Assembly: GCF_009649955.1 (NCBI RefSeq)
Contig: NZ_CP045875.1
Location: forward strand, 1,965,501 to 2,029,500
Origin: Heliorestis convoluta
GTDB lineage: Bacteria; Bacillota; Desulfitobacteriia; Heliobacteriales; Heliobacteriaceae
Length of the DNA: 64,000 bases
Direction of reading: 5' to 3'
In this document: piece after piece, positions 3,828-14,416 of the stretch
Numbering within the stretch: position 1 is the stretch's first letter
Layout: every line of letters starts with the position of its first letter
Position numbers and translations under genes: made by a program
The notes under the pieces: model-generated
The model's input: the letters and a program-made list of their open reading frames with translations, nothing else
Database searches by the model: none
What the model was told of the DNA's origin: nothing

Positions 3828-4166
3828 ATGATTAGAGTCGCTGTTGCTAGTAGTGATGGAAAAGTTGTTAATCAACACTTTGGACGAGCTAAGCAGTTTT
3901 TAATCTTCGAAATTGTAGAGGATCACTTTCAATTTCTTGAAATCCGGTATACATCACCTGCCTGTACAGGGCAAGACCATCGTGAAGGTCAGATGAGTCA
4001 AACGATTGAAATGCTTGCCGACTGTAGAGCTGTTTTTGTAAGTCAAATTGGGCCTGGTGCATCTGAAAAATTACTAGCCAAAGGCATTGTTCCTTATAGA
4101 ATAGCTAACTTTATAGAAGAGGCTATTAAAGAATGGATGGTAATCGAAGGTCTCAGTTTCGATTGA
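3828..4166 (+). CDS. Dinitrogenase iron-molybdenum cofactor biosynthesis (NifX/NifB C-terminal domain) family protein
   Basis: This is a 112-residue single-domain protein of the NifX / NifB-C-terminal / NafY superfamily, whose members carry or protect iron-sulfur or FeMo-cofactor precursors. The family hallmarks are the N-terminal MIRVAVASSDGKVVNQHFG strand-loop with the conserved HFG, and AVFVSQIGPGASEKLLAKGI with the GpGA turn. The C terminus is short, as in stand-alone archaeal and clostridial members. It starts at ATG after a strong AGGGGGGAAATAAG SD. It is transcribed alone between the nuo terminator and a palindrome. No nif structural genes are in the window, so a role in nitrogenase is not shown. 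It may be a general metal or Fe-S cluster carrier. Confidence 0.82.
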   Translation: MIRVAVASSDGKVVNQHFGRAKQFLIFEIVEDHFQFLEIRYTSPACTGQDHREGQMSQTIEMLADCRAVFVSQIGPGASEKLLAKGIVPYRIANFIEEAIKEWMVIEGLSFD

Positions 4167-4189: not shown

Positions 4190-4241
4190 TTAACAATAAT
4201 TAAGGGACAGTTTAGCAGAACTGTCCCTTAATTATTGTTAA
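4190..4241. repeat. Perfect 23-bp inverted repeat (palindromic element)
   Basis: Two 23-base arms (4190-4212 and 4219-4241) are exact reverse complements around the 6-base loop TAGCAG. The arm core is TTAAGGGACAG. It lies between the NifX-like gene and the yraN remnant. No real T tract follows on either strand, so it is not a textbook terminator, although it would form a very stable RNA hairpin. It could be a bidirectional terminator, a REP-like repeat or a small non-autonomous element. Confidence 0.75.
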
Positions 4242-4322: not shown

Positions 4323-4752
4323 ATGAGTCAAAGAATAGCTTTAGGACGCTGGGGAGAAGAACAGGCATGTAACTTTTTATTATCAAAAGGTTGGAAACTT
4401 ATAGAATAACTTTTTATTATCAAAAGGTTGGAAACTTATAGAAAAAAACTATCGTTGTTCTTATGGTGAGATCGATCTAATCTTTCGCTATGAAAAATGG
4501 ATTATATTCGTGGAAGTCAGAACACGCTCTACAACTCGTTGGGGAAGAGGTGAAGAGACCATCGATTATAGAAAGCAAAGGCGTTTATTGAGAGTCGCTT
4601 CTTTTTTTCTACAAGAAAAAAGACCTTCTTTTGGACACCCGAGGTTTGACTTAGTTACGATACATAAGCTTGGTTGGCAAAATAAAGAGCATGGAAGTTT
4701 CGAGAAATCTTCATACGAGATTGATCATCGGATAGCTATTATAACACCCTAA
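4323..4752 (+). pseudogene. YraN/UPF0102 family (predicted endonuclease-like) protein, frameshifted by a tandem duplication
   Basis: Reading starts at ATG 4323, after an AGGTGATAGG SD, and gives the family N terminus (MSQRIALGRWGEEQACNFL...). It hits TAA at 4407, after 28 codons. The rest of the protein (NYRCSYGEIDLIF ... WIIFVEVRTR) is open in the next frame through 4752. Between the two parts a 37-bp segment (4370-4406) is repeated exactly at 4407-4443. Removing one copy restores a single frame of ~130 residues with the family motifs GEIDLI and FVEVR. YraN-family genes commonly sit beside comM/yifB and dprA, as here. The family has a restriction-endonuclease-like fold, but its biochemical role is unclear. 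Status: broken as sequenced; it might revert by loss of one copy. Confidence 0.88.
4370..4443. repeat. 37-bp perfect tandem duplication inside yraN
   Basis: Copy 1 is 4370-4406 and copy 2 is 4407-4443. They are identical base for base (each begins TAACTTTTTATTATC and ends TTATAGAA). Since 37 is not a multiple of 3, the second copy shifts the frame and brings in a stop codon at the junction. Confidence 0.95.
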
Positions 4753-4874: not shown

Positions 4875-6428
4875 ATGTTGTCAAGAGTTCAAAGTGTTGT
4901 TTTAGAAGGAATTGTAGCTAGACCTGTACTCGTAGAGGTTGATGTGTCAAATGGCTTACCTGCTTTTGATCTGGTAGGCTTACCAGCAATCGCAGTTCGA
5001 GAGGCAAGAGAGAGAGTTAGGACAGCCATTCGCAATAGTGGTTTTAATTTTCCTCTACATAGAATTACAGTAAATCTAGCACCAGCCAATGTACGTAAAG
5101 AAGGAACTTCACTAGATATCCCAATTGCTTTGGCGATTTTAGCAGCAACGGAACAAGTTTCATTAGCCAAAAATGAGGCACAATTTTTTGTTGGTGAATT
5201 GGCACTCGATGGTACTGTTCGACCCGTAGAAGGCGTACTTGCAATGGCCTATGGGTTATCAAAAAGTCATATAGCTCATGATAAAGAACTTCAATTTTGG
5301 GTGCCTGCAACGAACATAGGAGAAGCTTATTCGATTTCAGAAATCTATAGTCAGGGTATAACTTCTTTACGAGATTTGGTTGATTTGTTATCGCAGCCTT
5401 CCCTTCGTAAGAAAAATCGTGGTATGGACAGCCAAAGAAAGAGTAGTTATTATCAGGAAAGCGATGATAGCAATGATATTGGCAGAATAAAAGGTCAAAA
5501 CATAGCGAAAAGGGCTTTAGAGATTACAGCAGCAGGTGGACACAATTTGCTCATGACAGGCCCTCCCGGTACAGGAAAAACGATGTTAGCGCGATCTTTG
5601 CCTTCTATATTGCCGCCCATGACTTATGAAGAGTCCTTAGAGGCAACAATGATTTATTCTATTACAGGAGAGCTAGGAGAAGATGTAGACTGGCTTTACC
5701 AAAGACCTTTTCGAACGCCTCATCACCACAGTACGATGTCTGCACTTATTGGAGGAGGACGAACACCAAGGCCTGGTGAAATTACTTTGGCCCATCATGG
5801 TGTTTTGTTTATGGATGAGTGGCCTGAATTTCCAAGAGAAGCTTTAGAGTCACTCAGACAGCCTTTAGAAGACGGGGAAGTAACGATTTCAAGACAAGGT
5901 GGGACCTATACCTTTCCGTCTAAGTTCTTGCTTGTTGCTTCTATGAATCCCTGTCCCTGTGGATATCTGAGTGATGAAGACGTAAAGCCGTGTAATTGCA
6001 CACCCTATGCAATAGAAAGGTATAAAAATCGTGTATCGGGGCCTCTTTGGGATCGTATGGATATTCAAGTTAGAGTGACTCGACCTAAGTACGAGTCTTT
6101 ACGGGCTCAAGAAGAGTATGAAGAAAGTTCTGCTCAAGTTCGGGCAAGAGTCATTAAAGCAAGAGAGAGGCAACTTTCTCGAATCACGACATACCAAAAG
6201 AAAAGAAAAATTTTTTGTAACGCCCATCTTGATGGAGAGCTCCTTCAAAAGACTTGTACTTTAGAAAAAGAGGCAGAGCAAATGCTAGAACGGGCTTATA
6301 AACAGTTTCACCTCAGTGGGCGAGCTCTACACCGCTTGATCAAAGTGGCTAGAACGATTGCTGATCTAAGAGACAGTGATATTATTTCTACTGTTGATCT
6401 TGCAGAAGCATTACAGTATCGTTTATGA
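4875..6428 (+). CDS. comM: YifB/ComM family Mg-chelatase-like AAA+ ATPase
   Basis: This is a ~517-residue ATPase. In competent bacteria ComM is a helicase that promotes branch migration during natural transformation, but in many Firmicutes its role is untested. Domain order: an N-terminal Lon-protease-S16-like fold (MLSRVQSVVLEGI..., ~1-170), an AAA+ Mg-chelatase module with Walker A GPPGTGKTMLARS (~residue 230) and Walker B LFMDEWPEF (the family usually has DELPEF), and a C-terminal Mg-chelatase helical domain. A cysteine cluster NPCPCGYLSD...CNC is present, as is usual. I chose ATG 4875 because MLSRVQS is the canonical N terminus. An upstream GTG would add 10 residues. It is followed by dprA, consistent with a DNA-uptake role. 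Confidence 0.92.
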   Translation: MLSRVQSVVLEGIVARPVLVEVDVSNGLPAFDLVGLPAIAVREARERVRTAIRNSGFNFPLHRITVNLAPANVRKEGTSLDIPIALAILAATEQVSLAKNEAQFFVGELALDGTVRPVEGVLAMAYGLSKSHIAHDKELQFWVPATNIGEAYSISEIYSQGITSLRDLVDLLSQPSLRKKNRGMDSQRKSSYYQESDDSNDIGRIKGQNIAKRALEITAAGGHNLLMTGPPGTGKTMLARSLPSILPPMTYEESLEATMIYSITGELGEDVDWLYQRPFRTPHHHSTMSALIGGGRTPRPGEITLAHHGVLFMDEWPEFPREALESLRQPLEDGEVTISRQGGTYTFPSKFLLVASMNPCPCGYLSDEDVKPCNCTPYAIERYKNRVSGPLWDRMDIQVRVTRPKYESLRAQEEYEESSAQVRARVIKARERQLSRITTYQKKRKIFCNAHLDGELLQKTCTLEKEAEQMLERAYKQFHLSGRALHRLIKVARTIADLRDSDIISTVDLAEALQYRL

Positions 6429-6543
6429 AAAATTGGACTCTTACCTTGACAAGTTTTCATGAAGTGATTAATGTTAAATACAATCTATGGCACGATTATC
6501 CAGTCAATCTGGTAGCCTTGATTGTGCCTTGGAGGGACAGGTA

Positions 6544-7644
6544 ATGCATATACTTTCGGAAAGCGAGCGGACGTACTGGTTGGCACTGGCTTCTTTACCT
6601 GCCATTGGTGCTAGACGTTTTCATAGTATTATAGAACATTTTGGTTCGCCCCAGGCTGCCTGGTTGGCTCCGGAAAAAGATTGGGACGGCGTAGCAGGAA
6701 TGTCTTTGTCACGTTGGCAAAAAACATTACAATATCGTAGAAAGGATTATTTATCTTCCTTCTTGGAACGTATATATTATGGAGGCATTGAGGCACTGAC
6801 TTTACAAGATGAGCGCTATCCTGAATTGTTACGTTCTATCCCTGATCCGCCACCGGTCTTATATATGAAAGGTCAAATTCAGGAGAGAGATAAAGTTAAT
6901 ATAGCGATTGTAGGTACCCGAAAAGCAACACCTTATGGTGAAAAAGTTTGTTCTCAATTGACAGAAGAACTGGTTCAACAAGAGCGGACGATTGTTAGTG
7001 GACTAGCCAGAGGAATTGATGCGATTGCCCATCGTACAGCATTGGAAAAAGGAGGGCGTACCATTGCCGTTTTGGCTTGCGGCCTTGATAAAATATATCC
7101 AAAAGCGCACGAAGCATTGGCAGCAGCTATAACGGAGAGAGGTGCATTAATCAGTGAGTATCCTCCTGGATCGCCTGCAGAACCAGGTAAGTTTCCAGCT
7201 CGCAATCGAATTATATCAGGTCTTTCTCAAGGCGTTCTGGTTATTGAAGCAGGGGAAAAGTCCGGAGCCTTAATCACGGCCGATCAAGCCTTAGAACAAG
7301 GCAGAGAAGTATTTGCCGTGCCTGGACCGATTACTTCATCACAAAGCAAAGGGACACATCGCTTAATTCAGCAAGGCGCCAAACTCGTTACTTCTATTGA
7401 AGATATTCTTTCAGAAGTACAAATACAGTTTAACTTTCTAGCGAAGCCGAAGCAAGAAATTGATCTTGAACCGAATGAGAAGAAGCTTTTATCTCATCTT
7501 GATTGGGAAGGTAAGACTATCGATCAATTGATCCATTGTACAGGTCTAAAAGGACCAGAAATAGCTGTTTTATTGACCCATTTAGAAATGAAAGGAATGA
7601 TCAAATCACTGCCGGGAGGGGGGCACTTTGTCTCTTTGCTTTAA
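6544..7644 (+). CDS. dprA: DNA-processing protein DprA
   Basis: This protein (~366 residues) loads RecA onto incoming single-stranded DNA in natural transformation. The N-terminal helical SAM-like region is followed by the Rossmann-like core with IAIVGTRKATPYG, VSGLARGIDAIAH and FPARNRIISGLS, the DprA signatures. A winged-helix DML1-like domain ends the protein (NEKKLLSHLDWEGKTIDQL...). I chose ATG 6544, which has GGAGGG 7 nt upstream. A longer frame from 6487 lacks an SD. It sits between comM and topA, the usual Firmicute arrangement. Confidence 0.95.
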   Translation: MHILSESERTYWLALASLPAIGARRFHSIIEHFGSPQAAWLAPEKDWDGVAGMSLSRWQKTLQYRRKDYLSSFLERIYYGGIEALTLQDERYPELLRSIPDPPPVLYMKGQIQERDKVNIAIVGTRKATPYGEKVCSQLTEELVQQERTIVSGLARGIDAIAHRTALEKGGRTIAVLACGLDKIYPKAHEALAAAITERGALISEYPPGSPAEPGKFPARNRIISGLSQGVLVIEAGEKSGALITADQALEQGREVFAVPGPITSSQSKGTHRLIQQGAKLVTSIEDILSEVQIQFNFLAKPKQEIDLEPNEKKLLSHLDWEGKTIDQLIHCTGLKGPEIAVLLTHLEMKGMIKSLPGGGHFVSLL

Positions 7645-14374: not shown

Positions 14375-14416
14375 TGTGATATGCAATTAACAATGTGTGA
14401 TATGCACTTAACAATG
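14375..14416. repeat. 21-bp tandem direct repeat (two copies)
   Basis: Copies 14375-14395 and 14396-14416 differ at one position (core TGTGATATGCA, then ATTAACAATG versus CTTAACAATG). The spacing of 21 bp is two helical turns, and the repeat ends 50 bp before flgB. It may be a regulator-binding site or simply a slippage duplication. Confidence 0.8.

Follow-up and report, generated by a model that had tools for sequence, protein, structure and literature searches.

A perfect 37-bp tandem duplication interrupts yraN in the genome sequence of Heliorestis convoluta

In the genome sequence of Heliorestis convoluta, a phototroph of soda lakes, the yraN gene is interrupted by a perfect 37-bp tandem duplication that shifts the reading frame and places a stop codon at the junction of the two copies. 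The gene lies in a window of 64,000 nucleotides of the chromosome, and positions given below are those of the window unless they are stated to be chromosome positions. The interruption is probably a real and recent loss-of-function duplication which is private to strain HH(T) or to the sequenced culture. Alternatively, the second copy could be an error of assembly, a reading that we take seriously but consider less probable than a real duplication.

Organization of the interrupted yraN gene

The chromosome of H. convoluta HH(T) (CP045875) is listed in its genome report as 3,218,981 bp (PMC7143216), and the nearest named matches of H. convoluta sequence are those of Heliobacterium mobile and H. 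chlorum. The gene order around yraN is nuoN-like, NifX-like, yraN, yifB/comM, dprA-like and topA-like, where the names of the nuoN-like, dprA-like and topA-like genes were assigned from sequence and order. The NifX/NifB-C-terminal-like gene upstream of yraN (3828-4166, forward strand) and the yifB (comM) homologue downstream (4875-6428, forward strand) are both intact according to the frame list and profile matches, and the dprA-like gene that follows (6487-7644, forward strand), which was named from its sequence and position, is an intact open frame. The NifX-like gene and yraN are separated by a terminator-like hairpin (4190-4241), whose 23-bp arms pair perfectly around a 6-nt loop and whose T tract is weak; this inverted repeat occurs once in the whole genome.

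A preliminary description of this DNA had claimed that yraN is broken by a perfect 37-bp tandem duplication at 4323-4752, and this proved exact in its coordinates. A repeat search and TRF agree on two head-to-tail copies of the unit TAACTTTTTATTATCAAAAGGTTGGAAACTTATAGAA, each 37 nt long and 100% identical to the other, which form an array of exactly 2.0 copies at 4370-4443 on the forward strand (copy 1 at 4370-4406 and copy 2 at 4407-4443). Chance is excluded as the source of the repeat, since exact lag matches at lags of 12-60 reached no more than 14 nt in any of 40 Markov versions of the 64-kb window.

Since 37 equals 3 x 12 + 1 (37 mod 3 = 1), codons 1-28 run into a TAA at the junction. The frame that opens with the ATG at 4323, MSQRIALGRWGEEQACNFLLSKGWKLIE, encodes 28 residues that form a normal YraN start. 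This 5' fragment (4323-4409, forward strand, by frame translation) contains copy 1 and ends with the premature TAA at 4407-4409, with which copy 2 begins, just as the preliminary description had it when it attributed both the frame shift and the stop to the second copy. The 3' fragment lies in the shifted frame at 4405-4752 on the same strand, where 115 open codons that include copy 2 are followed by a stop codon at 4750-4752. Its 114 amino acids (4408-4749) match both NF009150 (E=5e-25, 87.8 bits against a cut-off of 81) and Pfam UPF0102 (PF02021; E=7e-25, 88.8 bits against a curated cut-off of 23.6). The shifted frame is closed on its 5' side by a TAG at 4402-4404 and holds no ATG, GTG or TTG before 4510; its first start, the GTG at 4510, would give a product of 80 aa that starts too late to include the G-E-x-D of the nuclease motif. 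Given the stop at the junction and the lack of a start before this GTG, yraN as written encodes a 28-residue peptide from which the nuclease domain is absent. The gene is thus like other members of the YraN family (UPF0102, PF02021, NF009150) in its sequence, in the motif G-E-x-D ... F-V-E-V-R-T-R and in its site beside yifB/comM and dprA, but where a single continuous frame is expected of YraN / UPF0102, that of H. convoluta is interrupted after codon 28 and is shifted from there on.

Distribution among relatives and conservation of the remaining gene

A profile search of the whole H. convoluta genome found no second yraN, which rejects the possibility of an intact copy elsewhere. The 37-mer likewise has no further copies elsewhere in the genome when up to 3 mismatches are allowed, and membership of the repeat in a dispersed family was rejected on that ground. 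Among the other genomes of the class that were searched, yraN is in an open frame in 76 of 82. Counting H. convoluta, the family match is present in 77 of 83 class genomes and in 53 of the 54 that are of good quality, and no internal stop occurs within the yraN matches of the class genomes. The break truncates the start of the profile match in H. convoluta alone, leaving model positions 6-80, whereas nearly all other matches begin at position 1. In eight other heliobacteria, the congener included, one frame runs straight through the site and the repeat is absent, so the repeat is not an ancestral state that H. convoluta shares with its relatives.

Synonymous sites are saturated between heliobacteria, which makes pairwise dN/dS unusable, and constraint was assessed instead from relative-rate and invariant-column counts. 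H. convoluta retains the shared residue at all 30 yraN positions that do not vary among six heliobacterial relatives, and GEIDLI...FVEVRTRS of the PD-(D/E)XK motif is present. In the relative-rate counts, which used five outgroups, changes unique to H. convoluta number 5-8 compared with 7-17 in the congener. The rest of yraN has no further stops or frame changes and is under constraint like that of its relatives; additional lesions or relaxed constraint, as would be seen in an ordinary pseudogene that arose by decay, were not found in the gene. The absence of differences over the 37 positions sets a loose bound on the age of the repeat, as about 3 changes in 74 sites (4% divergence) could be missed at the 95% level.

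The private state of the duplication, together with the undecayed remainder of the gene, implies that the duplication is either young or not real. The same pair of options, a very recent event or an assembly artefact, had been put forward in the preliminary description and holds up as an alternative, given that the relatives are open in one frame and that yraN shows no other decay. That description had also named an observation which would point away from a recent change, namely relatives with the same two-copy state along with decay elsewhere in the gene, and this combination was looked for and not found.

Proposed origin and predicted effect of the duplication

If the duplication is real, a single slippage or misrepair event most likely copied 37 bp head to tail. 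Homology between the breakpoints is limited to 5 of 20 matches and the array has exactly 2.00 copies; these give no visible trace of simple slippage between short repeats, and slippage between short flanking repeats was rejected for lack of breakpoint homology. Of the 14 nt over the junction (CTTATAGAATAACT, 4398-4411), 13 are identical to those at 4093-4106 within the NifX-like gene upstream, a resemblance of which about 0.001 cases are expected in that gene before the post-hoc choice of the match is counted. A template switch into the NifX-like gene at 4093-4106 was considered and rejected because such a detour would leave extra bases, which are absent here.

YraN is a predicted PD-(D/E)XK nuclease (PMC1189080). 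As cited in PMC12455585, a preprint by Hardy et al. (2024) describes YraN as a helicase-associated nuclease which, together with the ComM helicase, promotes extended recombination events during natural transformation. Translation of the interrupted gene would halt at the junction TAA and leave the PD-(D/E)XK nuclease domain unmade, which would make this a loss-of-function allele. Short tandem duplications that break the frame are known to inactivate capsule genes of the pneumococcus, according to the accounts in PMC4243769 and PMC4022640. Since yifB/comM, the dprA-like gene and comEC, which is located elsewhere, all stay open in H. convoluta, only the accessory role of YraN would be lost, although the duplication may also have a polar effect on downstream expression.

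Assembly error as an alternative

It is possible that the second copy arose during assembly or finishing, either because two contigs were set end to end with their 37-bp overlap left uncollapsed or because a loop in a short-read graph was walked twice, in which case yraN is intact in the strain. We give this explanation considerable weight, though less than we give to a real duplication. Reads from the 454 GS20 and GAIIx instruments have about the length of a 74-bp array, which is near the limit of what they span or beyond it. Copy number thus rests on few informative reads. The genome report describes a Velvet assembly of two read sets, Roche 454 GS20 at 14x and Illumina GAIIx at 35x (PMC7143216). 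A remainder of yraN that is seemingly under full constraint is also in keeping with an intact gene, and exactly 2.00 copies without breakpoint homology is an outcome that an unmerged overlap would produce as well.

The quality of the assembly was checked by comparing the reading frames of relatives with about half of the H. convoluta genome, taken as evenly spread 20-kb stretches. Many candidates from the scan for split frames were discarded by eye as rRNA, tRNA, antisense or intergenic frames. Besides yraN, three conserved genes among about 390 conserved intervals have frame breaks of single-base size. One is the RNase J gene, which appears to be broken two thirds along its length near chromosome position 2,053,820 and is intact in relatives; the others are a gene for an unnamed conserved protein (near chromosome position 650,619) and a third conserved gene (near chromosome position 1,771,602). 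Given the importance that RNase J usually has in this bacterial group, the frameshift in its gene is probably a sequence error, and at least some of the breaks of this size probably are. The reverse comparison found frame breaks in none of 53 conserved intervals in one relative with a complete genome (G005) and a single doubtful one in 176 in the congener (G001).

Errors of a single base, however, differ in kind from a 37-bp duplication, and a graph assembler must have the k-mers of a junction in order to write that junction. In the approximately 1.66 Mb of H. convoluta that was sampled, the duplication in yraN is the only gene-breaking exact duplication of at least 30 bp. Samples of the relatives contain similar exact duplications of 19-38 bp (for example, 19 and 22 bp with 2.0 copies), and the H. 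convoluta sample has neither an excess of exact duplications over them nor a repeat length that recurs. Unmerged contig overlaps as a systematic fault are disfavored by this, because such a finishing habit would have left more duplications.

A comparable case is Mycobacterium tuberculosis Erdman, where tandem-repeat copy number differs between reference assemblies; the same paper shows that published reference genomes can contain errors and that short reads leave tandem-repeat copy number uncertain (PMC12817950). In both organisms the copy number in a reference may be either an error or real variation in the culture, which short reads are poor at telling apart. The cases differ in that long reads settled the copy number in M. 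tuberculosis Erdman, whereas H. convoluta is known from an older short-read assembly.

Phase variation and translational bypass as improbable alternatives

The preliminary description had further suggested a reversible on/off state, for which the only indication is the instability that tandem repeats have in general. Such a switch would require that yraN alternate between an off state with two copies and an on state with one, often enough to be of use in switching the gene within the population, and we regard it as very improbable. The model for it is the pneumococcus, in which spontaneous frame-breaking tandem duplications in cap3A, cap8E (wchA) and tts lead to high-frequency phase variation (Waite et al. 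2001, 2003, as cited in PMC4243769 and PMC4022640). The yraN allele shares this architecture, in that a short exact frame-shifting tandem duplication inactivates a gene which is otherwise intact, but a young allele or an artefact would equally leave the remainder intact. Loss of one copy reverses the pneumococcal duplications, whereas the yraN duplication is known from one H. convoluta genome and may be an artefact. The pneumococcal genes also concern a surface structure, while yraN encodes a cytoplasmic accessory of DNA processing, and contingency genes typically have surface or selfish functions. No relative has the repeat at this site in yraN, no breakpoint repeat predisposes the site to duplication, the one assembly, besides which the searches turned up no further record of the strain, gives no sign of both copy states, and a selective reason for the switching of YraN is lacking. 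Less probable still is the more specific proposal of yraN as a contingency gene, with YraN, and hence the way transforming DNA is integrated, toggled in part of the population as the 37-bp copy is gained and lost. Reversal of the duplication is possible in principle, as slippage could delete one copy and restore a frame, but this would be a by-product of the repeat, and an evolved switch has no support.

Least plausible of all is that the break is bridged in translation, either by a +1 frameshift of the ribosome at GAA-TAA-C (4404-4410), which would yield a YraN carrying 12 duplicated residues, or by re-initiation that would give a C-terminal fragment, for although the frames meet at the stop (the upstream one runs to 4406 and the downstream one is open from 4405) and +1 slippage is geometrically possible, GAA in the P site would re-pair poorly on AAT, the Shine-Dalgarno-like stimulator that stands in front of the prfB frameshift site has no counterpart here, and the first start in the downstream frame, the GTG at 4510, is itself past the catalytic aspartate.

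Other repeats in the genome

A further small tandem repeat in the window, at 14375-14416, consists of 2 copies of a 21-bp unit that are 95% identical. Elsewhere in the chromosome, the parS-like palindrome TGTTCCACGTGGAACA occurs eight times in a tandem array of units of about 71 bp (chromosome positions 809957-810468) and a ninth time at 814331, 3.9 kb from the array, and these nine exact sites are all that the genome contains. The array could be a loading site for ParB. Adjoining it is an exact 107-bp tandem duplication which carries a terminator-like hairpin (chromosome positions 809741-809955). A CRISPR-like array with the repeat GTTTCAATTCCGCAAGCGGAATAACC... lies at about chromosome positions 2781200-2781599, and in it units of repeat plus spacer are exactly duplicated.

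Implications

Neither a real mutation nor an artefact would open a new mechanism, and the case is an ordinary one. If the second copy is an artefact, yraN is one spot, among several frame breaks, that needs correction in the only complete Heliorestis genome. If, as we favor, the duplication is real, the type strain of H. convoluta would be without YraN, through an allele that could revert, and this would bear on studies of DNA uptake or genetics among the heliobacteria.
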